Source: Phycisphaera sp.
GTDB lineage: Bacteria > Planctomycetota > Phycisphaerae > Phycisphaerales > Zrk34
Assembly: GCA_016125285.1 (NCBI GenBank)
Contig: WGMA01000005.1
Span: forward strand, 124,001-188,000
Length of the DNA: 64,000 bases
Direction of reading: 5' to 3'
Below, in pieces: positions 26,256 to 62,331 of this stretch. The notes under the pieces are model-generated. The model was not told the DNA's origin. It searched no databases and was given only the letters and a program-made list of their open reading frames with translations. The position numbers and the translations under genes are program-made. Every line of letters begins with the position of its first letter. Position 1 is the first letter of the stretch.

Positions 26256-27851
26256 TCAACGCGCGATCGCGGCGGGCGCGTCGGGTTGGTTTTTCGCGGT
26301 CAGCAGGCGGAGCGTCACGCCGTCGACGTAGTGACCGTCGAACTCCGGCGCGACCGAGTCCGGGTGGACGTTTTCCACGGCGCGGATGCGGATGATCACG
26401 CAGTCGACGCCCGTCGGCAGACGCATCGAGGTCGACAGCGGCTGCCACGTCGCGGGGTCGGCGTCGGAAATCAGCACGGCGCCGCGGGCGTTGTCGTACA
26501 TGGCCTTGGTGGCGATATCGGCCTTGCGTAGGGCGAACAGCTGGATGCCGAACTCGGTGTCGGTCTGCGGGCCGCCGGCCACGCGGTTGAACTGCGCGGT
26601 GACCGTCGCGATCACGCGGCCGGTGTCGATCGCGTCACGCATGTCCGCGACGTCGATCACGCGGTACACCTCGCACGAGCTGTGCTCCGCGGAGGCGCTG
26701 CTCGACGTGGCGTCGAAGCGCAGCATCCGCCGTCCCTCGAACGGCACGACGTCGGCCGTGGCGTCGACCAGCGACGCGCGGTCGCCGTTCCACTGCGCAC
26801 CCGCCTTGGCCGAGCCGGACACGACGTAGCCGCCGCGCTCGAAACCGCCCTCGATCGTCGGCTCGCTCACCTTGAACATCGTCCGCAGCGTGTCGCTCGG
26901 CTGTATCGGCGCCGACGTGACCGCGGCCTTCGCATCGGCGACGCGCGCCGTCTGTCCCGCGGTGACCGCCGTGACGGTCGGGCGACCGGTCGACTTCGTG
27001 TCGACACGGCCCTCGTAGACGCTGACCTCCGTCGCGCCCGTTGCGTCGACCGTCACGCTGAAGTAGGTGCCGCGGTCGACCACGGTGGCGGTGGGCGTCT
27101 CAACGGCGAACCCGTGCGCCGCCTCGGGGACGTAAGCGAGCAGCCGGCCGCGTGTCAGACGCACGCGGTTGTCGTTGATGAGTTCGAAGTCGGCGGGTCC
27201 CATGAGCGACACGGTCGCGGTGGACCGCATGATCATGTCGGCGACGCCGGAGTTGATCCGGACGGGGCCGCGGTCGAGCATCGAGCCGGGGCCGAGCACC
27301 GTGTCGTTCGCGGCGTTGGCGTTGCTGAGGTCGCCGGCGTTGTCGGCGAAGGTCACGCCGCGTGTGTCGGTGAGCGTGGCGACGGGCTGACCGTCGGCGG
27401 CGCGGCTGGGGTCGTCGGTCGTCGACGGGCCGCGCGACAGCAGCGCTACGGCGAGCGCGGCGGCGAACAAGAAGACAGCGGCCGCGGCGTAGTGTGACCA
27501 GTGGGTCGTACGGCCGCGGCCGCTGAGGGCACGTTCGGTGGAGTGGCTGCCGATGGAGCCGACGACGGCGCGGTCGGTCGTGTCGACGCCGTCGGTGTGG
27601 TGGTCGTGGTCGTGGCGGGTCGTACCGCTCGGCGCCGAGGCGCTGACGCCCGCGTCCGTCGCGCTGAGCCAGCGGAGGTGCGCGCGGGTCGCGGTCAGCT
27701 CGAGGTAACGCCGCCGCGCCGCCGCGCTGGCCGACAGCGTGTCGCGCAGCTCGGCGGACTGCTCGTCGGTCAGCTCGCCGTCGAACAGCTCGGCGACGAG
27801 ATCGTCGAGCCGGGCGCGGCTGAAATCGGGTTGGCCCTGCGTGTCGCTCAC
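26256..27851 (-). CDS. Cassette A FecR-like transmembrane protein
   Basis: 531 residues from GTG 27851-27849, whose bases overlap the sigma stop (GTGA); GGAGGG lies within the end of the sigma gene. Residues 1-65 are an anti-sigma-type helical region (DDLVAELFDGELTDEQSAEL), followed by a His/Asp-rich linker, RALSGRGR, one membrane helix (121-138, YAAAAVFLFAAALAVALL), a FecR domain (about 195-310, with RLTRGRLLAYVPEAAHGFAV and VVDRGTYFSVTV), and a variable C-terminal beta-rich region that looks carbohydrate-binding-like. FecR proteins pass surface signals to their sigma factor; no TonB receptor is present here. Confidence 0.85.
   Translation of the reverse strand: MSDTQGQPDFSRARLDDLVAELFDGELTDEQSAELRDTLSASAAARRRYLELTATRAHLRWLSATDAGVSASAPSGTTRHDHDHHTDGVDTTDRAVVGSIGSHSTERALSGRGRTTHWSHYAAAAVFLFAAALAVALLSRGPSTTDDPSRAADGQPVATLTDTRGVTFADNAGDLSNANAANDTVLGPGSMLDRGPVRINSGVADMIMRSTATVSLMGPADFELINDNRVRLTRGRLLAYVPEAAHGFAVETPTATVVDRGTYFSVTVDATGATEVSVYEGRVDTKSTGRPTVTAVTAGQTARVADAKAAVTSAPIQPSDTLRTMFKVSEPTIEGGFERGGYVVSGSAKAGAQWNGDRASLVDATADVVPFEGRRMLRFDATSSSASAEHSSCEVYRVIDVADMRDAIDTGRVIATVTAQFNRVAGGPQTDTEFGIQLFALRKADIATKAMYDNARGAVLISDADPATWQPLSTSMRLPTGVDCVIIRIRAVENVHPDSVAPEFDGHYVDGVTLRLLTAKNQPDAPAAIAR
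27465..27533 (-). promoter_or_regulatory. Terminator-like hairpin inside FecR gene A
   Basis: Sense strand: CGTGCCC (27533-27527), one base, then a 16-bp stem made from CAGCGGCCGCGGCCGTA (27525-27509) and TACGCCGCGGCCGCTG (27491-27476) with one bulge, then TCTTCTTGTTC. It encodes RALSGRGR to the first residues of the membrane helix. Confidence 0.7.
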
Positions 27852-29446: not shown

Positions 29447-31021
29447 TCAGCGCGTGTCCGCGGCGGGCGTGGCCTTGAGGTCGTACTCGTGCACGACGAT
29501 GTCGCCGAATCGGGCGTTGTAGCCGCCGCCGATGAACAGGCGGCTGTTGGTGTCGTCGAAGCCGTTGTTGGTCGCGCTCACCCACGGCGAGGTGAAGTCC
29601 GCGACGAACGGCCCTCCGTGGTAGTCGCGGTCGATGCTGAACGCGAAGCGCCCATTGACCGCGTCGTAGATCATCCGCAGGCGGTGCGTACCGGAGCCCG
29701 CCTGATCCGCCGAGCCGCTCAGCTCGCGCGACACGCCGCGCGTGTGCGTGCCGTCGAAGTCGCCGATGTTCAGCGACCGGTTCTCGCGGAAATCGTCCGG
29801 CCAGGCCACGGCGAACACGCTGGGGCCCTGCGGCTCACGCGACATGTCCTCGCCGGGCACGCACGTGCCGAAGCCGAAGAACGCCCCGCCGATGCCGCCG
29901 TGCGCGCCCACGTCGCCGACGGTCATCGTGACCTCCGCGACGAAGCTCCGGCGGAGCCAGTCCGTGCGCTGCGTCCGCAGGTAGCAACGCGTCGGATCGC
30001 CCAACGACGTGAAGCGAACATGCCCGTCGGCGTAATCGACCAGCGCGGGCGGGACCGCCTCCCAGCCCGCGGGCAGTCGGCCGGTGGCGAACGTGTCCGA
30101 CAGCGTGACCGGCGTGTCGGCCAGCGCCTCGCCGAACTCTTCGGGGCTGTCGAGGTTGAGCCGGGTCACGTTCCCTTCGACGTCGACGTGCAGCGCCTGC
30201 CGGGCTTCGAGCCGATACGTGTCGTCGCCACGCTCGACGCGGACCACGCCCTCGAGCACGCAAACACGCGTCTTGTCGGCGTCATCGACGTTCATGGCGA
30301 ACGCGGTGCCGAGGTCGACGACGCGCACGCCTTCGGGACCTTCGACCGCGAAGCCGTGCGCGCCCGACGGCACGTGCGCGGAGATCACGCCGCGGTGCAG
30401 GCGACCGCTGTTGTCGCCGTGCAGCTCGAACCGCGCCGGGCCGGTGACGTTGACGACCGCGCCGCTGGTGAACAGCAGCTGCGCCGAGCCCTTCGACAGC
30501 GTCAGCGTCCCGGCCCCAAGCGGGCTGCCGATCGACATGTCGGAGGCGGCGTCGGTCCAGGCGACGTCGCTGCTGGTGTTGACGACGGTCGCGACCGTCG
30601 GCCCCGAGGCCTCGCGGTGCGGCGCCCGCGGCCGGGCGAGGAACGACACGGCCAGCGCCGCGGCGATAAGAAAGGCAGCGGCCGCGGCGTAGCGGGCAAA
30701 ATGGCTACGCGCGCGACCGCTGTGGGCACGTCTGTCTGATCCGATGTCGTCCGACGGCGCGAGCTTCGCCACCGGGATCGGCTCGGCCTCGACGAGGTCC
30801 GCATCGTCTTCCAGCGGCGCCTCGGCCGTGTGCTCACGCAGGTCCAGATCGAGCTGGCTCTCCAGCGCGGCGCACCGGCGGAACACGCCGCGGGCCTTTT
30901 CGCTCGACGCCAGGTCGGCCTCGAGCGCCTGCACCTCGTCGTCCGTGGCCGTCCCGTCGAGGACACGCCAGATCGCCTCGAGCAGCGCGGCGTCGGTCAT
31001 GGGGTCGCGGTCGGGCGTCAT
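29447..31021 (-). CDS. Cassette B FecR-like protein with lectin-like C-terminal domain
   Basis: 524 residues from the ATG at 31021, which overlaps the sigma stop as ATGA. Order: helical anti-sigma-type region (1-65); the motif EAEPIPVAKLAPS (78-90), shared with cassettes C, D and F; RAHSGRARS; membrane helix (about 109-125, YAAAAAFLIAAALAVSFLA); FecR domain with RLHRGVISAHVPSGAHGFAV and RVVDLGTAFAMNVDD; then a C-terminal jellyroll of about 200 residues starting DTFATGRLPAGWEAV, similar in style to concanavalin-like domains. The 38 bases that encode the EAEPIP motif are identical to those of cassette C. Confidence 0.85.
   Translation of the reverse strand: MTPDRDPMTDAALLEAIWRVLDGTATDDEVQALEADLASSEKARGVFRRCAALESQLDLDLREHTAEAPLEDDADLVEAEPIPVAKLAPSDDIGSDRRAHSGRARSHFARYAAAAAFLIAAALAVSFLARPRAPHREASGPTVATVVNTSSDVAWTDAASDMSIGSPLGAGTLTLSKGSAQLLFTSGAVVNVTGPARFELHGDNSGRLHRGVISAHVPSGAHGFAVEGPEGVRVVDLGTAFAMNVDDADKTRVCVLEGVVRVERGDDTYRLEARQALHVDVEGNVTRLNLDSPEEFGEALADTPVTLSDTFATGRLPAGWEAVPPALVDYADGHVRFTSLGDPTRCYLRTQRTDWLRRSFVAEVTMTVGDVGAHGGIGGAFFGFGTCVPGEDMSREPQGPSVFAVAWPDDFRENRSLNIGDFDGTHTRGVSRELSGSADQAGSGTHRLRMIYDAVNGRFAFSIDRDYHGGPFVADFTSPWVSATNNGFDDTNSRLFIGGGYNARFGDIVVHEYDLKATPAADTR
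30665..30730 (-). promoter_or_regulatory. Terminator-like hairpin inside FecR gene B
   Basis: CGTGCCC (30730-30724), one base, stem CAGCGGTCGCGCGCGTAGC (30722-30704) with GCTACGCCGCGGCCGCTG (30693-30676), one bulge and one G-U pair, 10-base loop CATTTTGCCC, then CCTTTCTTATC. The tail uses TTT and CTT codons where TTC and CTC prevail elsewhere. Confidence 0.72.
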
Positions 31022-32410: not shown

Positions 32411-33853
32411 CTATTCCTCGCTGGTGATCGGCGTCGGCGTGACGATCCGCTCGAAGCGGATCAGGTCGAAGTTGATCTGATTGAATCCTCCGGGCGGGTC
32501 CACGAGCCGCAGCTGCAGCCGCTTGCCCGCGTCCTTCGGCGGACACGTGAACGTCAGTACGCGGTCGGTCATGATGCCCGCGCCCACGTCGGACAGGTCG
32601 CCCTGCACGCTCGCCAGCGCCTGACCCGAGTCCGCGTCGTAAAGGGCCAAGCCCCAGGCGACGCGCTCGATGTTGTCGGCGTACTCGCGACGCGCGCCGA
32701 CGCGGGCCGTGAGTCGGTAGGTCTCACCGGCGCGCGTGTACACGCCGAGGTCCTGATAAAGCGCGCTGACCACGCCCGCCGGATCGCTCGAGATCGGCTT
32801 GTTGACGTACCCCGCGAATCGTCCGTCGACGCCCGCGCGGAACCGATCGCCCTGTAACTCGCACCCCGCCCGGCTGCCCGCGATGGTGCTCTTCCAGCCC
32901 GTCGGCCACGACCGCGATGTCCTGTCCTGATCATCGTCCTCAAACGACGGATTGACCACCGTAACCGCGCGACGCACCTCGAGCGGCTCGCCGACCGACT
33001 CGGCGTTGACCACACAGCGGTCGCCCGCGACCAGGTCGAAGCTCCCCACGACCTGTCGCGAGCCGACCGCGCGTTCGATACGCACGCGGCCCTCGGTCAC
33101 CGCGACCGTCTGCCTGCCGCGCTCGTCGATGTCGACGCGGAACCGCGTGCCGAGGTCCACCACGCGCACGCCGTCCGGCAGATCGACCGCGTAGCCGACC
33201 GCCTCCTTCGGCACGTAGACCTCGAGGCGGCCGGCGTCGAGCCGGCCGGCGTTCGGCCCCGTCAGCGCGAAGCGGCACGGGCCATGCAGGCTCACCACCG
33301 CGCCACGCTTCATCAGCAGCTGCGCGTAGCCGCCGTCGAGCGCCAGGTCGCCGTTGGCCATCGCGTCGCCGACCGCCGGCTTGTCCGTCGACCACACCGC
33401 GTCGGCCGCGTCGATCAGCGTCGCCACCGCGTCGGCCTGCGCCACACCCATCCCGCCACCCGCCCGACCGGCACGATGGCCCAGCCACAGCGACACGGCG
33501 ACCGTCGCGATCAAGAAAAGAACGGCGGCCGCGGCGTAGCGATAAAAGCGGCTACGCACGCGACCGCCGCGGGCACGTTGAAGGGAAATCGGTTCATCCG
33601 CCGGCGCGAGCTTCGCCACCGGGATCGGCTCGGCCTCGATGATGTCGTCCGCGCCGGCGTCGCCCGCCGCGTCGTGCCGCATCATCCACGTCTGCGTCGC
33701 CACGCGGTTGAACAGCCGGCAGCGCGATTCGTCGCCGCGCATCGCCTCGGCCAATCGCTCGGCGTCGGCCTCGTCGCAGCGATCCTCCAGGTACGCCAGC
33801 GTCAGCGCGACGAAGTCGTCGTCCGTCATCGGGCTGTACGGCGTGTCAGGCAC
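32411..33853 (-). CDS. Cassette C FecR-like protein with CBM-like C-terminus
   Basis: 480 residues from GTG 33853-33851; the start overlaps the sigma stop by 8 bases (GTGCCTGA), an arrangement found also in cassette G. Anti-sigma-type N-terminus (FVALTLAYLEDRCDEADAER), EAEPIPVAKLAPA at 73-85, RARGGRVRS, membrane helix at about 106-123 (YAAAAVLFLIATVAVSLWL), FecR domain with RLDAGRLEVYVPKEAVGYAV and RVVDLGTRFRVDID. The C-terminal 170 residues begin VVNPSFEDDDQDRTSRSWPT, a pattern of carbohydrate-binding-type jellyrolls. Confidence 0.85.
   Translation of the reverse strand: MPDTPYSPMTDDDFVALTLAYLEDRCDEADAERLAEAMRGDESRCRLFNRVATQTWMMRHDAAGDAGADDIIEAEPIPVAKLAPADEPISLQRARGGRVRSRFYRYAAAAVLFLIATVAVSLWLGHRAGRAGGGMGVAQADAVATLIDAADAVWSTDKPAVGDAMANGDLALDGGYAQLLMKRGAVVSLHGPCRFALTGPNAGRLDAGRLEVYVPKEAVGYAVDLPDGVRVVDLGTRFRVDIDERGRQTVAVTEGRVRIERAVGSRQVVGSFDLVAGDRCVVNAESVGEPLEVRRAVTVVNPSFEDDDQDRTSRSWPTGWKSTIAGSRAGCELQGDRFRAGVDGRFAGYVNKPISSDPAGVVSALYQDLGVYTRAGETYRLTARVGARREYADNIERVAWGLALYDADSGQALASVQGDLSDVGAGIMTDRVLTFTCPPKDAGKRLQLRLVDPPGGFNQINFDLIRFERIVTPTPITSEE
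33509..33577 (-). promoter_or_regulatory. Terminator-like hairpin inside FecR gene C
   Basis: CGTGCCC (33577-33571), one base, stem CGGCGGTCGCGTGCGTAGC (33569-33551) with GCTACGCCGCGGCCGCCG (33540-33523), one bulge, loop CGCTTTTATC, then TTCTTTTCTTGATC. Tail codons GTT CTT TTC TTG. Confidence 0.72.
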
Positions 33854-39395: not shown

Positions 39396-40871
39396 TCAGT
39401 TGCCGGGGTCGGCGTCGGTCTCGGCGTCGGGCATGGCGACGATCACACGGATCTGGTCGACCTTGTCGTTGACGACGCCGAAGTGCAGCCGCAGCGTGCG
39501 GCCGTCGCGTTCGAGCGTGACGGTGTCGGGGGTTTCCTTCTGCGAATCGCTCAGGCCTTCGAGGCCGTCGGGATGCGTCGTGTAGTCGACGCGCGGCGAG
39601 CCGAGCAGCGTGCCGCTGGCCTTCAGCTCGGCGTCGGCGGCGATCACGGCGAGGACCGGCGTGTCGAACCGCACGGTCGCGTCGAGGAACGTCAGCCCGC
39701 GCGGATCGTGCGCCGGATCGAAGCGGATCAGGTAGCTGCGGACCTTGACGCCCGATCGGACACGCAGCGGGCGCGTCGTGTCGTAACGGTCGCTCGTGCC
39801 CGGCTTGATCAGCGTCGCGGCGATCGGCTTGCGGAGCGCCACGCCGTCGGATTCGAGCACGATGGTCATGAAGCTGTCGCTTGGCGGCAGCGGCTGCGGC
39901 GCGGCGATCGGCGTGCCGGCGTCGCGTGCGGCCCGGCCGTCGATCATCAGCGACGCCGGCTCGCTCGACGCGACGCCCATGCCCGCGTGCTGCGGCGCGA
40001 CGAAGCGGTGCGCGTCGGCCGTCACGTCGCTCACGTTGCCCGTCGCGCTGTCGATGGCGATCGAACGCCCCGCCGTCAGCGAGACCGCCGAAGCGTCCGA
40101 CGTGCCGTACGGCCGCACCTTCACGTGGCCCTCGAACACATCCACGCGCGTCTCGCCCATGTCGGTCACATCGACGCCGAACCGCGTGCCGAGGTCGATC
40201 ACCTCGTGCGTCGGCGTCTCGACGGTGAACCCGTGCGCCTTGGTCGGCACGACCGCGACGATCCGTCCGTGCGTCAGCCGGCACCGGTTGGGCCCCAGCA
40301 TCTGCACGTCCGCCGGGCCCAGCAGCGTGACCCGCGCCGTCGACTCCATCACGAGCTCCGCGGCGCCGGACTGCAGCTGCAGGCGACCGGGACGCACCGA
40401 CGAACCCAGGTCCGTCAGCGTGTCGGCGTCGACCCACTTCGCGTCGACCACGTCGGTGATCGTCGCGACCGGCGGGCCGTCGTTGGCCACGCCCGCGGGG
40501 TCACGGTGATCGGTCACGGCGCCGCGCTGCATCAGCACGACCACGAGACCGGCAACAATTAAAAAGACGGCGGCCGTCGCGTAACGGAGCACATTGCTAC
40601 GCGGACGGCCGCCGAGGGCACGTCGATCGGTGGACGGAGCGAGGCGCGCGACGGGGATCGTCTCGGCCTCGATCGCATTGGCCTCGTCGGCCAACTCAAA
40701 GTGCATGTCGAGGTACTGCCGGTAGTAACGCCGGGCCGCGTCGCTCGACTCCAGCAGCGTCTGCAGCGCGGCGAACCGCTCGTCGGTGATCGACTCGTCG
40801 ACCACCTCCGCCATCAGCGCCTCGAGCTCGGCGCGGGTCGCTTCGTCGAGTTGTGCACGCGTGTCGCTCAC
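39396..40871 (-). CDS. Cassette D FecR-like transmembrane protein
   Basis: 491 residues from GTG 40871-40869, overlapping the sigma stop (GTGA). Anti-sigma-type N-terminus (DESITDERFAALQTLLESSD), EAETIPVARLAPS at 68-80, RALGGRPRS, membrane helix at about 97-114 (YATAAVFLIVAGLVVVLM), FecR domain with RLTHGRIVAVVPTKAHGFTV and VIDLGTRFGVDVTD. The C-terminal half (SYLIRFDPAHDPRGLTFLDA onward) is shared with cassette H only and has no family name I can give. The bases after the internal hairpin give codons TTT TTA ATT GTT, rare in this genome. Confidence 0.85.
   Translation of the reverse strand: MSDTRAQLDEATRAELEALMAEVVDESITDERFAALQTLLESSDAARRYYRQYLDMHFELADEANAIEAETIPVARLAPSTDRRALGGRPRSNVLRYATAAVFLIVAGLVVVLMQRGAVTDHRDPAGVANDGPPVATITDVVDAKWVDADTLTDLGSSVRPGRLQLQSGAAELVMESTARVTLLGPADVQMLGPNRCRLTHGRIVAVVPTKAHGFTVETPTHEVIDLGTRFGVDVTDMGETRVDVFEGHVKVRPYGTSDASAVSLTAGRSIAIDSATGNVSDVTADAHRFVAPQHAGMGVASSEPASLMIDGRAARDAGTPIAAPQPLPPSDSFMTIVLESDGVALRKPIAATLIKPGTSDRYDTTRPLRVRSGVKVRSYLIRFDPAHDPRGLTFLDATVRFDTPVLAVIAADAELKASGTLLGSPRVDYTTHPDGLEGLSDSQKETPDTVTLERDGRTLRLHFGVVNDKVDQIRVIVAMPDAETDADPGN
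40554..40622 (-). promoter_or_regulatory. Terminator-like hairpin inside FecR gene D, with a genuine T-run
   Basis: CGTGCCC (40622-40616), one base, stem CGGCGGCCGTCCGCGTAGC (40614-40596) with GTTACGCGACGGCCGCCG (40585-40568), one bulge, then TCTTTTTAATTGTT. A C-G pair of the other stems is here a T-A pair on both arms. Confidence 0.78.
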
Positions 40872-41413
40872 GCCGCGCCCTCCACGTCGGAGGTCTCTGC
40901 CAGTGCCTGGTTTACGCAATCCATCAACGCGGCGCGGATCCGCTCGAGCTGCTTGTACAGCCGCTTGGGCCGCTCGCCGAGTTGCTCCGCCAGGGCCGCG
41001 ACTGTTTCGGTCGTCGCGTAGCGGCGACGCACGAGCTGGCGCTGCGTGTCGGGCAGCTTGTCGAGGCAGTCGCGCATCGCACGCCGGCGGGACTCGGTCT
41101 CGTCCTGCTCGGCGGCGCGCTCGTCGGCGAGCCGCTCGATCAGGCCCTCGTTGAGCACCAGCCGCCCGCGCCGCGCCCGGTCACGCTGCTTGAGCGCCTC
41201 GAGCCGGGCGAACGCTAAAGCCCACGGCACAAAGGGTTGAGCCGCGTCGTACTCGCCGAACTTGCGCCACAGCGCCACCGACGTATTCTGAAACGCCTCG
41301 TCGGTCGCCTCGCGGTCGAGCAGCAGCGAGAACAGAAACCGCCGCACGTCCTGCTCGTGCTTGGCGAACAGGCGGAGGAAGGTCTCGGTCTGATGTGGCG
41401 TGTCGTGATCCAT
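40868..41413 (-). CDS. Cassette D ECF sigma factor
   Basis: 181 residues from the ATG at 41413. Region 2: LRLFAKHEQDVRRFLFSLLL, ATDEAFQNTSVALWRKFGEY, PWALAFARLEALKQRDRARR. Region 4: CLDKLPDTQRQLVRRRYATT and VAALAEQLGERPKRLYKQLE. A TATATA sequence and an A/T tract (about 41421-41478) lie upstream. Confidence 0.9.
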   Translation of the reverse strand: MDHDTPHQTETFLRLFAKHEQDVRRFLFSLLLDREATDEAFQNTSVALWRKFGEYDAAQPFVPWALAFARLEALKQRDRARRGRLVLNEGLIERLADERAAEQDETESRRRAMRDCLDKLPDTQRQLVRRRYATTETVAALAEQLGERPKRLYKQLERIRAALMDCVNQALAETSDVEGAA

Positions 41414-41861: not shown

Positions 41862-42698
41862 TCAATAGAACGTCGTGTCCCTGGCGCCGCCGCGGACCCA
41901 ACCGAGGGTGGCGTTGACGTTCGACGGCGAGATCGTGGTCTCCCACTGCATGCGGACGGCGTCGAACTCGTTCTCGTCGCCGATCCAGCGGGCGCTGCCG
42001 TCGACGTAGCCGCGGCTCGTGCCCAGCAGCGCCGGCGGGCCGTAGTCCACCTGCACCCGCGAGCCCGAGCCGGGCCAGTGGATGGATTGTCCGTTCTCGC
42101 CGTGGTTGTACCACCAGCCGCCGTAGGTCCACTTGTACATCACGTCGCTGACGATCACGGCGTCGCCCCTGTTGTTGCCGACGTTCGTGGCGGTCAACTC
42201 GCGGCGCGCCCTGGCGGTGCCCCAACCGCTCCATCGGTCGACGCCGGTCGTCAGCGCGTACGGCGTGTGGGTCCAGCCGCCCGGCCACCACGCCGGGTCG
42301 ATCTTCGCCTGCTCCTCGTAGTCGAGCATCGGACAGTACCAGACGTTGCTGAAGGTCTTCGTCTTGAAGTCGACGCCGGGCATGTACTCGGCGAGCAGTT
42401 CCTGCGACCACTGCTGGCCGGGCTCGCCCTGCGCCTTGGTGATCCAGACGAGGCTGGGGTACCAGCCGCCGAACTTGTTGCCGCACGACCGCAGCCTGCC
42501 GTTGTTGTCCATCGCGGAGGTGAGCATGATCGCCGACCACTGGTGCGCGCGCGTGGTGCAGACGGTGCGTCGGGCGATGTAGCGCGCCTCCCGGGCCGAG
42601 GGCAGCAGAATGGCGATCAGCAGCGCGATGATGCTGATGACCACGAGCAGCTCGATGATGGTGAACGCGCAGCGGCGGTGGCGGGGTCGGCGGGTCAT
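41862..42698 (-). CDS. Cassette E pseudopilin
   Basis: 278 residues; ATG overlaps the stop of the FecR gene (ATGA). Arg-rich N-terminus, class III signal CAFTIIELLVVISIIALLIA with Ala before Phe. VWYCPMLDYEEQAKIDPAWW in the middle, DG motif TSRGYVDGSARWIGDENEFD. Unlike several other cassettes, the pilin here is directly coupled to the FecR gene. Confidence 0.88.
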   Translation of the reverse strand: MTRRPRHRRCAFTIIELLVVISIIALLIAILLPSAREARYIARRTVCTTRAHQWSAIMLTSAMDNNGRLRSCGNKFGGWYPSLVWITKAQGEPGQQWSQELLAEYMPGVDFKTKTFSNVWYCPMLDYEEQAKIDPAWWPGGWTHTPYALTTGVDRWSGWGTARARRELTATNVGNNRGDAVIVSDVMYKWTYGGWWYNHGENGQSIHWPGSGSRVQVDYGPPALLGTSRGYVDGSARWIGDENEFDAVRMQWETTISPSNVNATLGWVRGGARDTTFY

Positions 42699-44296
42699 GG
42701 TCGCGTTTCCTTCGCCGGCGGCGCGGCTTGATAGAGTTGACGGGCCTCGGCCGGCGTCAGCGCGCGGTCATACACCACGGCCTCGTCGAGGTCGCCGACG
42801 AACGGGGGGTCGGCCTTCGCGCCCAGCCGCGCGCCGATGGCGAACGGCGTGTCCGTGACGATGGAGCCGGTGAGGTGATCGACGGCGGCGTGCAGCGCGA
42901 CGGGCTCGCCGTCGACGTAGAGCCGCACGCCCGCCGCCTTGCCCGACCCGTCGTAGGCCGCCAGCAGGTGGACCCAGCGTTGCGACGGGATGGGGGCGAC
43001 GCTGCGGATCTCGATCGTCTCGCGTCGCGCCCAGTCGTGCCAGAGCGAGACCCAGACAAAACGATTCGCGTCGATGAACAGGCTGTAGCCGCGGTTGGTG
43101 TCGCCCACGTCCATCTTCGAGATGATCGTCCGCGGCGTCTGACCGGTGGTGCGCACCCACGCGCCGAGGCTGAACACGTCGGCGCGATCGAACCCGGCGA
43201 ACTCGCCGACCCGCAGGTACCCCGTGCCGTCCAGGCGTAGCGCACGATTGGATCGATCGGCGCCGTTGCCGCCCGACCCGAGCGCGGGGCCGCCCGTTGT
43301 CGTCGCCACGCCGACCCGGCGCGCGGGCGCCGCGGGATTCGCGAGGTTCTCCGCGTCACCGGTCGACTCGTCGAAGCGCCAATAGCCGATCGGCTTCGTG
43401 TCGAGCACGCGGTCGGCGTAGGAGCGCAGCGGGGTGAACAGCGTGGGGTCGGGCGTCAGGGTCCGGGCGATGGCGCCCGCGCCGTCGACCGCCGTGGCCC
43501 GTCCCGCGGGCAGGTCCTGCGCGATGCGATCGCTGTTGAGTCGGACGCGGCCCTTGAACACGTGGACCTGCGTGTCGGCGGCGGGGTCGACGACGAGGCC
43601 GAACTCCGTGCCGAGGTCGGTGACGGTGGTGTGCGGGGTGGCGACGGCGAAGCCGACCGCGGCGTGCGGGACGCGGGCGTAGAGGCGACCGGCGTCGAGG
43701 CGGCCGCTGTTGGGCCCGGTGATGCGGAAGGTGGTGTCGCCGACGAGGTCGACGACGGCGCCGCTGGCCATGACGATCTGCGCGACGCCGGAGCGGAGGT
43801 GCAGCGGGCCGGCGTCGAGCGACTCGCCCGGCTGGAGCGCGCCGCTGTCGTCGGCCCAGACGGCGCGATCCCCGCCGATGAGCGTCGCGGCGTTGGTCTG
43901 CTCGGTGGCGGTCTGCGTCGCGGTCGGGCGGCTCGACCAGATCAGCGCGGCGGCGACGCCCGCGGCGATCACCAGCGCGGCGGCCGCGGCGTAGCGGAAG
44001 GACGGGCGGAACGTCGCGATCGGGCCGGTCGAGGCGGGCCCGCGGGGCGGAACCCCTGGGCCTGGGGCGACGTCGTGGAGCTCGGCGTCGCGGGGCTCGA
44101 GGGCGATGGGCCGCTTGTCGACGCACAGGTCGTCGCCGAGCACGCTGTGCAGGCAGACGATGCGGAGGTAGTAGTCCTGCGCGTCCGGCGCGTCGCGCAG
44201 CAGCGTGTCGAGGCGCGCCAGGCCGACGTCGTCGAGCCCGTCGTCGAGCATCGCGCTGGTCAGGTCGTGCAGTTCCTTGTGATCGGGTGCGCTCAT
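42695..44296 (-). CDS. Cassette E FecR-like protein with LamG domain
   Basis: 533 residues; ATG overlaps the sigma stop (ATGA). Anti-sigma-type N-terminus (LTSAMLDDGLDDVGLARLDT), a Pro-rich linker instead of the EAEPIP motif, membrane helix at about 102-120 (YAAAAALVIAAGVAAALIW), FecR domain with RLDAGRLYARVPHAAVGFAV and TVTDLGTEFGLVVD. From about residue 300 a LamG/concanavalin-like domain follows: IGYWRFDESTGDAENLANPA, FSLGAWVRTTGQTPRTIISK, WVHLLAAYDGSGKAAGVRLY and GDLDEAVVYDRALTPAEARQ. Internal hairpin only weak here (CGGGCC / GGCCCG, 44021-44042). Confidence 0.88.
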   Translation of the reverse strand: MSAPDHKELHDLTSAMLDDGLDDVGLARLDTLLRDAPDAQDYYLRIVCLHSVLGDDLCVDKRPIALEPRDAELHDVAPGPGVPPRGPASTGPIATFRPSFRYAAAAALVIAAGVAAALIWSSRPTATQTATEQTNAATLIGGDRAVWADDSGALQPGESLDAGPLHLRSGVAQIVMASGAVVDLVGDTTFRITGPNSGRLDAGRLYARVPHAAVGFAVATPHTTVTDLGTEFGLVVDPAADTQVHVFKGRVRLNSDRIAQDLPAGRATAVDGAGAIARTLTPDPTLFTPLRSYADRVLDTKPIGYWRFDESTGDAENLANPAAPARRVGVATTTGGPALGSGGNGADRSNRALRLDGTGYLRVGEFAGFDRADVFSLGAWVRTTGQTPRTIISKMDVGDTNRGYSLFIDANRFVWVSLWHDWARRETIEIRSVAPIPSQRWVHLLAAYDGSGKAAGVRLYVDGEPVALHAAVDHLTGSIVTDTPFAIGARLGAKADPPFVGDLDEAVVYDRALTPAEARQLYQAAPPAKETRP

Positions 44297-45944: not shown

Positions 45945-46655
45945 TTACCACCAGTGCCAGGGCCAGTGGTCGGCCTGCGTGCGCAGCTCCATCTCGTCGA
46001 ACGTGCGCCAGCCGACGTGTCCGTCGACGAACAGCAGGTTGCCGCCGGCGGGCTGGCGCGTCGCGTCGTCGAGGAGCTTGCGGTCGTCGAGGTGCGGCGA
46101 GCGGTGCACCCCGGCCCAGCCGCCCTTGACGTAGGTGAAGTTCATCGCGTTCGTCGAGAGGTTCGAGTCGGTGGACATCGGCGTGACCGCGGCGCCGCTG
46201 ACCTTGCTGAGGCTCACGAGCGTGTGGTTCGATCCGGTCAGCGGCGGGAACCCGCGGTTGGGCTGCTCGATGAGCGAGTAGTAGCCGGTGACGATGTAAT
46301 CGGTGGCGTACTCCCACAGCGACTCGTCGTTCTGGTAGATGCCCGACGGGCAGTAGAACACGTCGCGTGTCGCACCGCTGTCGACCATGAACCCGCGGAC
46401 GTCGCGGCTCATGTCCCACCACCAGTTGCCGGCGTACTGCGTGCTGGAGGGGAACGCCGTGGCGTTGTCCGCCGCGTAGTTCAGCGCCGCGAAGCCGATC
46501 TGGTGCTCGTTGGACGCGCAGATCGCGCGGCGGCCGGTCTCCTGCGCCTTCTCGTACGCCGGCATCGCCAGCACCGTCAGCAGGATGAGGATCGACACGA
46601 CGACGAGCAGCTCGACGATCGTGAACGCGCGGTTGTTGCGGCTGCTGGGGCTCAT
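45945..46655 (-). CDS. Cassette F first pseudopilin
   Basis: 236 residues; ATG overlaps the FecR stop (ATGA). Class III signal RAFTIVELLVVVSILILLTV with Ala before Phe; ATRDVFYCPSGIYQNDESLW; DG motif GGNLLFVDGHVGWRTFDEME, close to that of pilin A; end DHWPWHWW. Standard pilin of the cassette, followed by the LamG-type pilin. Confidence 0.88.
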   Translation of the reverse strand: MSPSSRNNRAFTIVELLVVVSILILLTVLAMPAYEKAQETGRRAICASNEHQIGFAALNYAADNATAFPSSTQYAGNWWWDMSRDVRGFMVDSGATRDVFYCPSGIYQNDESLWEYATDYIVTGYYSLIEQPNRGFPPLTGSNHTLVSLSKVSGAAVTPMSTDSNLSTNAMNFTYVKGGWAGVHRSPHLDDRKLLDDATRQPAGGNLLFVDGHVGWRTFDEMELRTQADHWPWHWW

Positions 46656-48202
46656 GGCTGCCCGACCTTTCCGAGGGAGTAGTGCATCTTGATCTGCTGT
46701 TCAGACCACGCGCGCCGCACGACGATGAACTGATCGATCACGCCGTTGAGCGACGGATCGACGTCGTAGAAGCTCTTGCCGACGAGGCCGGTGACCGGCG
46801 CCACGTCGCGCGGCGTGACGGTGAGCCTCGTGTTCTGCGCCACCGGCTTGCCGTCGAGGTAGAGCGTCGCGGTCGAACCCGCGCCGTCGGCGTTGCGGCG
46901 GATCGTCACGGCCAGGTGCACCCAGCGCTCGACCGGCATCGGCGACGGCGCGGTGACCATCTGCTCGTCGGGCTTGCCGCTGTTGGTGATCGCGAAGCGC
47001 GGCCGGCCGTCGTCGGCGCCGAGCGTGAGGAACAGGTAGCGGTTGACGTCGTGGCCGAAGTCGAACACGCGCTGCCACGCCCCGCCGCCACGCCAGTACA
47101 CCCACGCCGTGACGGTCAGCTCGTCGCTGTCCAGGCCGTCGACCGGCACACGCAGGTACGACGTGCCGCCCAGGTCGAGCGCGGGTCGACCCCAGCGATC
47201 GTTCGCCGCGCGCGACGCGTCGCCGAGCACCACCGCGTGCCCGCCCGCGGCCGCGAGATTGTTCAGCGTGGTCGACCCGGTCGCGCCCCGCATCGCGTAG
47301 CACTGCAGCGTGTCGGCCGACGCGGCGATGTGCCGCAGGTACGCGTCGTCGGACGTCTCGCCGCGCTCCGCCACGATGCCGCCCGCCTTGCGGAGCGTCA
47401 CGGACACCGGCGCGTCGAAGCGGCGGTCCGAACCGTTCTGCGACACGGACACCACGCCCTCGGTCACGCGCAGGTGCACGTCGCCGGACGCGTCGGCGCC
47501 GAGGATGAACCGCGTGCCGAGATCGGTGACCCGGCCGGCGTAGGTTTCGACCGCGAAGCCGTGCGCAGCGGGGGGAACGTTGAAGGACGCCCAGCCGGTG
47601 CGCAGGGCGCAGGCGTTGTCGCTGGTGAGCCGCAGCTCCGTGGGGCCGAACAGCGTCGACTGCGCGCCGCGTCCGTGCACGAGTTCCGCGACGCCGCCCT
47701 CGAGCGTCAGCGGCGCCGTCCCCAGCGTGTCGCCCACCGCCAGCTCGCCGGCCGGCGCGGCCCACTGCGCGTTCTCCGCGCCGGTGAGGGTCGCGAGCGC
47801 CGCGGCGCTGGGCGGCGCGACGGGGCCGGGCCCGGTCGGCGATGTCGTCCGCGTCGCCAGCACCGCCACGAGGCTCGCGACGATGAAGAGAACGGCGGCC
47901 GCGGCGTAGCGATACAGCGGTGTACGCACGCGGCCGCCGAGGGCACGTTGATCGGTCGAGGGAGCCAGCTTCGCCATCGGGATCGGCTCGGCCTCGATCG
48001 TGTTGGCTTCGTCGGCGATGCCGTGCAGGTCCGCACACAACGCCGCGTGTTCGATGTAACGCCGACGCAGCTTCGCGTCGTCGCGGATCAGCGTCTGCAG
48101 CTCGGCGAACTGCTCGTCGGTGATCGTCCCGTCGGCCAAGGCGTCGAGCAGCGTGTCGAACGCGGCGTGCGGGTTCGGCGTGGGGAAGGCGCGGTCGTTC
48201 AT
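46652..48202 (-). CDS. Cassette F FecR-like protein with LamG domain
   Basis: 516 residues; ATG overlaps the sigma stop (ATGA). Anti-sigma-type N-terminus (DGTITDEQFAELQTLIRDDA), EAEPIPMAKLAPS at 70-82, RALGGRVRT, membrane helix at about 99-116 (YAAAAVLFIVASLVAVLA), FecR domain with ALRTGWASFNVPPAAHGFAV and RVTDLGTRFILGAD, and LamG domain from about 345 to 510 (LTVTAWVYWRGGGAWQRVFD ... NGVIDQFIVVRRAWSEQQIK). The LamG is nearly the same as that on the second pilin of the cassette. Confidence 0.88.
   Translation of the reverse strand: MNDRAFPTPNPHAAFDTLLDALADGTITDEQFAELQTLIRDDAKLRRRYIEHAALCADLHGIADEANTIEAEPIPMAKLAPSTDQRALGGRVRTPLYRYAAAAVLFIVASLVAVLATRTTSPTGPGPVAPPSAAALATLTGAENAQWAAPAGELAVGDTLGTAPLTLEGGVAELVHGRGAQSTLFGPTELRLTSDNACALRTGWASFNVPPAAHGFAVETYAGRVTDLGTRFILGADASGDVHLRVTEGVVSVSQNGSDRRFDAPVSVTLRKAGGIVAERGETSDDAYLRHIAASADTLQCYAMRGATGSTTLNNLAAAGGHAVVLGDASRAANDRWGRPALDLGGTSYLRVPVDGLDSDELTVTAWVYWRGGGAWQRVFDFGHDVNRYLFLTLGADDGRPRFAITNSGKPDEQMVTAPSPMPVERWVHLAVTIRRNADGAGSTATLYLDGKPVAQNTRLTVTPRDVAPVTGLVGKSFYDVDPSLNGVIDQFIVVRRAWSEQQIKMHYSLGKVGQP
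47881..47947 (-). promoter_or_regulatory. Terminator-like hairpin inside FecR gene F
   Basis: CGTGCCC (47947-47941), one base, stem CGGCGGCCGCGTGCGTA (47939-47923) with TACGCCGCGGCCGCCG (47908-47893), one bulge, 14-base loop, then TTCTCTTCATCG. Confidence 0.7.
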
Positions 48203-51187: not shown

Positions 51188-52600
51188 TTAGTTGGTCGCA
51201 GCGCCGGCGTCGACACGCGGGCGGATCTGCACCTGGATGGAGTAGCTGGAATCCTCGTAGCGCGGCTCCGCCTCGAGGCGATCGCCGAGGCGGACCCGCG
51301 TGTGGTTCGGGCCGAAGTACAGCACGGGCGTCTCGCCGGTGTGCAGCTCGTGGTTGATGACCCCGGCGTTGTCGGTGTCGACGCCGCCTTCCTTCCAGCC
51401 GAACGCGTCGCCCTTGCGGACGTCGGCGCGGCCGGCGGCGGGCTCGAAGTCAAACCGCTGGATGCCCGATCCGTCGCTGGTGCGCGTCGCGCCGATGGCG
51501 ATGATCTGCCACGTGTCGTCGACGCGGCGGCAGAGGATCGGCGTGACCTGACGCCCGGCGTTGTTGTCATCGAAGAACGCCCAGCGTTCGACCTCGCCGG
51601 CGGTGTCGAACGGCCGGGCGAGCAGGTAGACGTTGCCGAGTTGCTGCGAGTCGCGCGGGCGGTCGATCAGCGCGACGTTCTTCGGCAGCCACCGGCTGAG
51701 CGTCGCGAAGCGCTCGCGCTCGACGGCGATCGGCTGCGTCAGCGCGTCGTCGACACGCAGGGCGTGGTCGGCGGTGAGCTTGACGGGCGTGGCGTTGGCG
51801 TGCAGCGCGGTGGCCTCGACGAGGCCCTCGATGACGTGGACCTCGGTCCGGCCGTACCGGTCGACGGTGACGCCGAACACCGTGCCGCGATCGACGACGC
51901 GCGCCCGCGGCGTGACGATCGCGAAGCCGTGCGCGTTGCCCAGCACGCGGGCGAGCACCGTGCCGCGGTCGACCTCGCACGCGTTGTCGCCGGTGATGCG
52001 CAGGTCGGTCTGCCCGATGAGCGTGACGACGGCGCCGCGTCCGAGCGCGATCTCCGCCGAGCCCGCCTTGAGGCGGAGCACGCGCGAGGTCAGCTCGCCG
52101 CCGTCGAACGACGTGTCGTTGTCGTCGGCGTCGGCCCACACCGCGTTGCCGCCGTCGAGCAGCACCGCGCGGGTCGACGGCGTGACGTCGGATACCGTGT
52201 GCTGCGCATCGGGGTCGATCGCGTCCGGCCTCGACAGCAGCGCGACCGTCGCCGCCGCGGCGATGAGCACGGCGGCCGCCGCGGCGTAGCGGATCAACCC
52301 GATGCGCCCGGCGGGCGCGGCTTGCGTGCCGGCCCCGCCGCGCATCGCGCGAACCGGCGCGACGTCGTCCGCCGGCGTGTCGTCCTCCGCGGGCGCCTGC
52401 GCGTTGGCCATCTCGCTGAGCAGCCCCGCCTGCATGCACATCGCGACGTAGAGGTCGCGCGCGGCCGGGTCGTCGGCCAGCGACGCGTTGAGCGCCGCGA
52501 CGTCCGCCTCGGTCGCCTCGCCGTCGAGGTAACGCGCGATGCGGTCGGCGAGGGCGCGCCGGGCGGCGTCCTGGTTGTTCGCGTCATGGGGGTCAGGCAC
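51188..52600 (-). CDS. Cassette G FecR-like transmembrane protein
   Basis: 470 residues from GTG 52600-52598 with an 8-base overlap with the sigma stop (GTGCCTGA), as in cassette C. Anti-sigma-type N-terminus (RIARYLDGEATEADVAALNA), acidic linker without the EAEPIP motif, membrane helix at about 106-122 (YAAAAAVLIAAAATVALL), FecR domain with EVDRGTVLARVLGNAHGFAI and RVVDRGTVFGVTVDRYGRTE. The C-terminal 180 residues (VYLLARPFDTAGEVERWAFF onward) are not recognised and not shared with other cassettes. Confidence 0.85.
   Translation of the reverse strand: MPDPHDANNQDAARRALADRIARYLDGEATEADVAALNASLADDPAARDLYVAMCMQAGLLSEMANAQAPAEDDTPADDVAPVRAMRGGAGTQAAPAGRIGLIRYAAAAAVLIAAAATVALLSRPDAIDPDAQHTVSDVTPSTRAVLLDGGNAVWADADDNDTSFDGGELTSRVLRLKAGSAEIALGRGAVVTLIGQTDLRITGDNACEVDRGTVLARVLGNAHGFAIVTPRARVVDRGTVFGVTVDRYGRTEVHVIEGLVEATALHANATPVKLTADHALRVDDALTQPIAVERERFATLSRWLPKNVALIDRPRDSQQLGNVYLLARPFDTAGEVERWAFFDDNNAGRQVTPILCRRVDDTWQIIAIGATRTSDGSGIQRFDFEPAAGRADVRKGDAFGWKEGGVDTDNAGVINHELHTGETPVLYFGPNHTRVRLGDRLEAEPRYEDSSYSIQVQIRPRVDAGAATN
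52301..52346 (-). promoter_or_regulatory. Hairpin inside FecR gene G, unrelated sequence, same place
   Basis: Sense GATGCGCGGCGGG (52346-52334) pairs with CCCGCCGGGCGCATC (52315-52301) over 13 bp with a 2-base bulge and 18-base loop. No CGTGCCC before it and no T-rich tail, so only the structure and position agree with the other cassettes. Confidence 0.5.
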
Positions 52601-60837: not shown

Positions 60838-62331
60838 TTACTTGGAGACGACCAAGACGCGCACCTGGTCGATGGCGCCCGTGGCGGTCAGCTGGAGGAA
60901 CAGTTCCTTCCGGTCGGCGCTGATGGTCAGCGAATCGCTGAATCCGCCGTCGAAGCCACGCCCGCCGTTCGGGGTGGCGTCGTAGATCATGTTGGGCAGG
61001 CCGAGCAGTTCGTCGCTGGCCTGGAGGTGCTCGTCGGAGGCGATGACGCCGAGGATCGGGCGGTCGAACCGCACGGACCCGGCGAGGCTGACGCTCTTGT
61101 CGTTGCCGGGCGTGCCGACGGGGTCGAAGTGCAGCAGGAACACGTCGACCTTCTTGCCGGGGGCGATGACGAAGTTGCCGCTGTCCGACGTGGCCCAGAG
61201 GCCGGGCCGGCGCGGGAACGTCACGGTGAGCGGGTCGACGAGCTTGACGCCCTGCCGCTCGGGGATCAGCGCGATGCGTGCGTTGTGCTCGAAGCGGCCA
61301 CGCGCCAGCGACGGCGGGGCGTCGATCGAGTGCACCGCGCCGCGGACCCGCACCACGCCGTCCGGCAGCGGCGCGGTGATGTGACCGTCGTGCTCGAAGC
61401 GAGCGGGACGGAGCGAGACGACCTGCCCGCCGGTCGGCGCCGTCGGGCCGAACATGCGTGCCTGGCCCTTGGTCAGACGCTGCGCCTCGGACACGTCGCC
61501 GTCGGCGCTGCCGACCTCGACGATCCCCTGGAACACGTGCACCTCGGTGCGGTCATTGCCGTCGACCTCGACGCCGAATTCGGTGCCCAGGTCGGTGACC
61601 ATCGCGGAGGGGGTGTGAACGGTGAAGCCGATGGCCCACTCCGGCACGTACACGGCGATGCGTCCGCGGAGCAGGCGACAGGCGTTGTCGCCGATCATCT
61701 CCAGCTTCGTGTCGCCGAGCATCGTGACGATCGAGCCGCGACCGAGCACCAGCTGCGCCGACCCGCGACGCAGATGCAGCGCCCCGGGCTCAAGCGACGT
61801 GCCGGGCTGAAGCATGTCGGCCGAGGCCTCGTCGGCCCACTCGGCGTTGGTCACGTCGACGACGGTCGCGACGGTCGTCGGCCGGACCATCGCCGGTGCA
61901 ACCTCCGCGAGCTCGTCACCACCGTCGTTGTGGCCGCTTCTGGACAGCGCCATCACCGCCACCACGAGGGAGGCGACGACGACGATCGCCGCGGCGATGC
62001 GGGTGAAGTATGCGAAATATGACAGGGCGGGGGCGGACCCGGAGCTGTGGTCCGCCCCGCCTGTCAGGGCACGCGAAAGGGAATACGTCTCGGGCTGCTC
62101 GGCGTCACACGCCATCGGCAGGCCCATCTCCGCGGTGGCGTTCCACTGCAGGTCGGCGTGCAACGCCATGTACCGCAGGTAGTGCCGCCGCGCCTCGGCG
62201 TCGTCGCGGATCAGCTCCGCCAGACGCTCGTGATCGGCCGACGTCGCCGTGCCGTCGCAGTAGCGACCGAGCAGCGCCGTCAGTTCGTCGGCGTGCGCGT
62301 CGTCGAGATGTTCGTCACGCTCGACGCTCAC
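60838..62331 (-). CDS. Cassette H FecR-like transmembrane protein
   Basis: 497 residues from GTG 62331-62329 (GTGA overlap with the sigma stop). Anti-sigma-type N-terminus (LLGRYCDGTATSADHERLAE), RALTGGAD, membrane helix at about 105-125 (IAAAIVVVASLVVAVMAL), FecR domain with RLLRGRIAVYVPEWAIGFTV and MVTDLGTEFGVEVD. The C-terminal part (FLLHFDPVGTPGNDKSVSLA, DRPILGVIASDEHLQASDEL, AIDQVRVLVVSK) matches cassette D. So FecR and pilin of D and H were duplicated together. Confidence 0.85.
   Translation of the reverse strand: MSVERDEHLDDAHADELTALLGRYCDGTATSADHERLAELIRDDAEARRHYLRYMALHADLQWNATAEMGLPMACDAEQPETYSLSRALTGGADHSSGSAPALSYFAYFTRIAAAIVVVASLVVAVMALSRSGHNDGGDELAEVAPAMVRPTTVATVVDVTNAEWADEASADMLQPGTSLEPGALHLRRGSAQLVLGRGSIVTMLGDTKLEMIGDNACRLLRGRIAVYVPEWAIGFTVHTPSAMVTDLGTEFGVEVDGNDRTEVHVFQGIVEVGSADGDVSEAQRLTKGQARMFGPTAPTGGQVVSLRPARFEHDGHITAPLPDGVVRVRGAVHSIDAPPSLARGRFEHNARIALIPERQGVKLVDPLTVTFPRRPGLWATSDSGNFVIAPGKKVDVFLLHFDPVGTPGNDKSVSLAGSVRFDRPILGVIASDEHLQASDELLGLPNMIYDATPNGGRGFDGGFSDSLTISADRKELFLQLTATGAIDQVRVLVVSK
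62011..62072 (-). promoter_or_regulatory. Terminator-like hairpin inside FecR gene H, different stem sequence
   Basis: CGTGCCC (62072-62066) directly followed by stem TGACAGGCGGGGCGGACC (62065-62048) with GGTCCGCCCCCGCCCTGTCA (62038-62019), 18 bp with two single bulges, 9-base loop, then TATTTCGC. The stem has no sequence in common with A-D and F. Confidence 0.72.

Follow-up and report, generated by a model that had tools for sequence, protein, structure and literature searches.

The locus considered here raises the question of why a gene for a membrane anti-sigma factor should begin its membrane helix with codons that its genome hardly uses, directly behind a hairpin. In cassette D of the window (the whole stretch of 64,000 nucleotides that was analysed, G000:C55:124001-188000), the codons GTC TTT TTA ATT GTT follow the 3' arm of the hairpin immediately on the minus strand (40568-40554), as the initial annotation had read them. 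The FecR-type gene in which they lie encodes a cytosolic N-part, a membrane helix and a periplasmic FecR domain, and the hairpin belongs to a longer element. The features of cassette D are as follows.

40868-41413, minus strand: ECF sigma factor gene upstream of the FecR gene, with a 4-nt overlap (Sigma70_r2, 29.8 bits)
39396-40871, minus strand: FecR-type anti-sigma gene holding the element (491 aa in our own gene call; PF04773, 31.9 bits)
40568-40622, minus strand: element, with conserved CGTGCCC (40622-40616), 5' arm (40614-40596, bulge at 40603), loop and 3' arm (40585-40568)
40554-40567, minus strand: T-rich tract TCTTTTTAATTGTT after the stem, GTC TTT TTA ATT GTT, the start of the membrane helix
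38590-39348, minus strand: downstream pseudopilin/DUF1559-like gene (PF07596, 16.8 bits, weak and below the cut-off)

An element common to 18 FecR-type genes

The 6.09-Mb draft genome has 41 matches to PF04773 (FecR). Our sample comprises 34 stretches around FecR genes and pattern matches, 710 kb including the window, with 510 gene models, and background statistics cover these 710 kb and not the whole genome. The sampled loci encode ECF sigma factors, FecR proteins with LamG or HpiC1-like domains, and DUF1559/N_methyl pseudopilins, a set of genes that by inference points to a planctomycete. As genes were called with our own codon-usage caller and membrane helices were taken from Kyte-Doolittle windows, gene starts and helices are approximate.

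The element is common to 18 related FecR-type membrane anti-sigma genes of this one genome. Its consensus is CGTGCCCNCGGCGGYCGC(N)GCGTAGC - loop - GCTACGCCGCGGCCGCCG - T-rich tract, with CGTGCCC in front of a GC-rich stem of 18 bp that has a single bulged base, and 5-7 T among the 8 nt behind it. Its place in the FecR ORF is 77-106 codons in, after the part for the cytosolic anti-sigma domain and before that for the membrane helix, with the complete sigma gene lying upstream. It occurs on the sense strand only and encodes about 19 residues plus the start of the helix. The first 12 copies were gathered solely from the protein motif A[RLH][GS]GR that precedes the helix, and the rest by a DNA pattern and a covariance model. 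GTGCCC and the GGCCGC core are both present in 18/18 copies, including all of the first 12; this invariance is partly built into the collecting pattern, which is not the case for the T-tract and pairing statistics. Outside the element the paralogues share only about 26-28% amino-acid identity, so recent duplication does not explain the likeness. The covariance model yields 18 strong matches (62-90 bits), the cassette D copy scoring 82.2 bits at G000:C55:164554-164622. All 18 lie in FecR-type genes and are not dispersed between genes, which rules out a REP or other extragenic palindromic repeat. A further, degenerate FecR copy (locus L007, G000:C21:35784-35852; 42.6 bits) keeps CGTGCCC, the 3' arm and a GTTTTG tail; in its 5' arm GGC GGC has become GAT GAC and the stem is lost.

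Within the window, five of the eight cassettes carry the element (at 27.5, 30.7, 33.5, 40.6 and 47.9 kb). The four copies besides that of cassette D are these.

27462-27533, minus strand: in FecR gene 26256-27851; tail GTC TTC TTG; compensatory A-T pair near the stem base
30662-30730, minus strand: cassette B, in FecR gene 29447-31021; tail GCC TTT CTT; compensatory A-T pair near the stem base
33509-33577, minus strand: cassette C, in FecR gene 32411-33853; tail GTT CTT TTC
47879-47947, minus strand: in FecR gene 46652-48202; tail GTT CTC TTC

The FecR genes at 42695-44296, 51188-52600 and 60838-62331 lack it.

Constraint on the tract, the stem and the flank

The codons of the cassette D tail are rare, as had been suggested from the neighbouring genes. 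Across the 510 gene models (710 kb), TTA provides 0.2% of Leu codons (CTT 2.0%, TTG 4.5%), ATT 2.4% of Ile, TTT 7.2% of Phe and GTT 2.8% of Val. At positions 1 to 6 after the stem, A/T-ending codons are found in 15, 16, 6, 3, 4 and 0 of the 18 copies. The initial annotation had named their being equally frequent in other membrane helices as the outcome that would refute it; in 358 other predicted helices, such codons make up only 4.8% (329/6802), and 5.4% of the first five codons. Their share is 5.6% (36/638) in the membrane helices of 29 FecR genes without the element, and 8.7% in the remainder of the element-bearing FecR genes. The further proposal that cassettes B, C and H show the same tendency stands for B (GCC TTT CTT) and C (GTT CTT) and fails for H, where the TCA TAT in question (61.9 kb, cassette 60838-62331) lies upstream of the helix, in a gene that has no hairpin and whose helix codons are ordinary.

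That the encoded residues alone cannot account for the T's is borne out by recoding: the 8 nt after the stem hold 103 T out of 144, where 2000 synonymous recodings of the same protein give a mean of 61.9 and a maximum of 70. Leu at the third tail codon is TTG in 8/18 copies and TTA in 3/18, so that T is gained at the first codon position too. The tract comprises 15 distinct sequences among the 18 copies, each with 5-7 T out of 8. As the tract is maintained by different sequences and TTG replaces CTG, selection acts on T rather than on particular codons, and T-content is the thing preserved. The inference of selection for a U-run in the RNA is thereby supported, the enrichment at synonymous positions coinciding exactly with the first 8 nt after the stem.

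The stem is constrained as well. All 18 copies fold more stably than synonymous recodings of their own peptides (mean z -2.6; p<=0.03 in 17), with an MFE of -35.2 vs -24.6 in cassette D, while z is +0.21 in the 29 element-free FecR genes and -0.22 in other segments of the same genes. Standard pairs fill 93% of the pair cells in the alignment, and 5/18 pairs have changed on both sides vs 1.4 expected, a number reached in 0/500 shuffles and far above that of slid controls. Cassette D contributes C18-G49 -> U-A and G19-C48 -> C-G, the former at the price of an Ala -> Thr substitution. Template-switch repair can also give rise to paired changes in a palindrome without selection. Codon choice is fixed within the element: the first CGT codon is found in 17/17 copies (12.5% of Arg codons in general; p 5e-16), the second in 14/14, GCC in 18/18 and GTT in 12/15 (usage 2.8%, p 8e-17), and about 60 equally conserved columns elsewhere are mostly at genome usage. 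These p-values assume independent copies, which the copies are not fully. The loop is free to vary. Taken together, these data show that an element with stem and U-tract is under selection inside 18 anti-sigma genes, at the RNA level or at least at the nucleotide level.

Resemblance to intrinsic terminators

We posit that the element is an intrinsic terminator inside the ORF of paralogous FecR-type anti-sigma genes which fires when translation lags, and we give this reading a probability of roughly 0.6. Like intrinsic (Rho-independent) terminators, the element has a GC-rich stem followed at once by a U-rich tract on the sense strand, and it scores like the terminators at gene ends of this genome. 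Ranking by a d'Aubenton-Carafa-type score (used for ranking only) returned 14 sense-strand sites with d>=0 in ~600 kb of coding sequence, 13 of them element copies (13/18), and no such site on the antisense strand of the same sequence. Nineteen gene 3' ends pass the same threshold, and the genome therefore uses terminators of the same kind at gene ends, the element being the main departure from this within genes. In two element copies the score marks the U-tract as poor (d about -20 and -26). The covariance model also picks up a genuine terminator between two convergent genes (C17:44381, 34.5 bits). The only other coding site with d>=0 (L022:4161) belongs to an element-free FecR cassette, in which it lies in the ECF sigma gene; here, near the start of the gene (L022:4120-4170), a stem is followed by TTTTTGCG. 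The reading that fits these data best, by inference alone, is that the T-tract forms a U-run with a part in termination.

Unlike usual intrinsic terminators, the element lies inside an ORF, is coding, is kept in 18 paralogues and has a fixed 5' flank, CGUGCCC. A simple terminator does not need the conserved CGTGCCC 5' of the stem, and its role is unexplained. A general terminator motif is unconvincing, as a terminator-like stem follows 3/101 intergenic GTGCCC vs ~1% for permuted hexamers. Three intergenic terminators do have GTGCCC 0-2 nt before the stem (L058:1501-1562 on G000:C17, L012:15349, and L017:4890 on the minus strand), an enrichment that is not significant in the sample. A trans-acting RNA complementary to CGTGCCCNCGNCGG elsewhere in the genome was also considered and rejected, the extra matches that were inspected lying in unrelated coding frames. 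A search of Rfam with 26-64 kb of the window gave 0 matches above the gathering score.

No alternative antiterminator pairing was found in the +/-150 nt context of the copies; for most of them the terminator stem prevails there, its pairs having a mean probability of 0.90-0.92, with lower values in a few copies, and regulation would therefore need the ribosome or a protein. Ribosome-mediated attenuators are known from the trp, his and pyrBI leaders. As in these, translation would decide on whether the terminator hairpin forms; unlike these, the element has neither a leader peptide upstream of the regulated gene, being itself inside the FecR ORF, nor a conserved antiterminator that we could see, and the terminator lies in the structural gene, well downstream of its start. 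A parallel is offered by E. coli, in which many RNA 3' ends lie inside ORFs (PMC7815308) and a ribosome stalled upstream of an intrinsic terminator in a translated message leads to premature termination (PMC5021804). As with the ORF-internal terminators exposed by stalling in rsxC and narY, use of the element would hinge on coupling between ribosome and RNA polymerase, but the E. coli examples are single predicted sites (PMC5021804), whereas the element forms a conserved, constrained family in one kind of regulatory gene.

Under the proposed mechanism, a ribosome close behind RNA polymerase would cover the hairpin and the full operon would be read. If translation of FecR lagged, the hairpin could form and transcription would stop; the sigma factor would then have its mRNA, the membrane-bound anti-sigma factor and the pseudopilin downstream would have none, and the sigma/anti-sigma ratio would be tied to translation. 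All three points, the termination itself, its link to translation and its consequence for this ratio, are inferred without transcript data. In an extended version, the in-frame terminators, one per cassette, would be a shared coupling sensor that sets the sigma/anti-sigma ratio in 18 ECF systems, with CGUGCCC as the site of a common regulator and the element also marking a joint of sensor-module exchange; we regard this as speculative and unlikely, and it is not excluded.

Competing explanations and implications

Among the rivals, the one that survives best is a role in mRNA processing or stability, in which the hairpin would guard the 3' end of the sigma mRNA and an RNase E-type cut in the U-rich strand behind it would let the sigma and anti-sigma messages decay separately. 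A stem followed by a U-rich single strand, with a complete sigma gene upstream, speaks for such a role, but the role does not require a U-rich tract that starts exactly at the stem base or is confined to ~8 nt, and we consider it improbable.

A DNA-level role, as a recombination or homology site at which the sigma factor plus cytosolic module changes partners with respect to the periplasmic sensor, the copies being homogenised by gene conversion, draws on the make-up of the cassettes. At 26-63 kb of the window and at the other FecR loci, the ECF sigma/FecR/pseudopilin cassettes seem to be assembled from modules that meet near the membrane helix, at the position of the element. The FecR N-part co-varies with the sigma factor (r 0.52); the periplasmic part and the pseudopilin vary independently of these two, and the correlation between N-part and C-part is about 0.1. 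Carriers of the element are spread over the sigma tree (17 changes; 14.7 when shuffled) and grouped on the C-part tree (6; 14.4 when shuffled). One row of the sigma tree, and probably another, was not a true sigma factor; these rows were removed from the other comparisons afterwards. In cassette D, the pseudopilin is close to that of the 60.8-kb cassette, and the sigma and FecR proteins of the two are not close. Several observations speak against the DNA-level role: FecR genes that lack the element show shuffling as well; of the two halves of the element, the 5' one tracks the N-part (r 0.33, p 0.0075) and the 3' one does not track the C-part; and the variable loop, together with a T-tract kept by different sequences, is unlike homogenisation. 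As the element halves show no clean breakpoint and cassettes lacking the element are also shuffled, recombination is retained as a rival of low probability, and not as the main reading. Integron attC sites have R''/R' boxes, RYYYAAC and GTTRRRY, at their stem ends. Like them, the element is an inverted repeat that folds, has a variable loop and an extrahelical base, and lies where modules meet; it does not qualify as one, as it lacks an AAC box opposite GTT, is flanked 5' by CGTGCCC and has its stem inside one gene.

The rarity of the tail codons could also mean that they delay the ribosome at the start of the helix for membrane insertion. This is very doubtful given their absence from the 29 other FecR genes and the 358 other helices; nor would it explain the synonymous stem, the fixed codons before the tail or why TTG, with its additional T, is preferred to CTG. 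Still less can be said for programmed slippage of transcription, or frameshifting, on the T-run, with a truncated soluble anti-sigma factor as the product. A stop in the +1 frame does occur within 3 codons in 11/18 copies, but the T-runs are short and interrupted (mostly 4-5) and the hairpin precedes the run instead of following it. The frameshift reading was rejected, as the +1 stops follow from the Leu-Ile codons, NTG-ATC making a +1 TGA anyway. Finally, the notion that the motif R-A-x-G-G-R...R-Y-A-A-A-A-V merely yields GGC/GCC complementarity in a GC-rich genome (Gly GGC being complementary to Ala GCC), with T's forced at second codon positions by Val, Leu and Ile, is contradicted by the data, as synonymous recoding reproduces neither stem, T-tract nor codon fixation, and the residue after R-A varies (R, L or H) yet codon positions 1 and 3 are always C.

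As far as sampled, the element belongs to the one lineage. Strong copies are absent from 60 relatives, from 400 genomes in the order and from 392 in the phylum, and viral contigs contained none. The exact pattern has two matches in 84,980 species genomes, both apparent coincidences without a T-tract hairpin of the element's kind. Nor did the same design appear under a different sequence in 65 FecR loci of same-family genomes, which show no A/T enrichment at the helix start. In the literature (open-licence papers only) we found no description of the element or of ORF-internal terminators in anti-sigma genes.

Terminators inside ORFs are usually regarded as accidents to be avoided. Under the terminator reading, one has apparently been selected here although it costs rare codons and limits some amino-acid choices, and this in 18 genes that have diverged but share one regulatory function. 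If the element does terminate transcription, it would provide a clear example from nature of conditional intrinsic termination inside an ORF as a means of regulation, and transcription-translation coupling would become testable in a little-known lineage.
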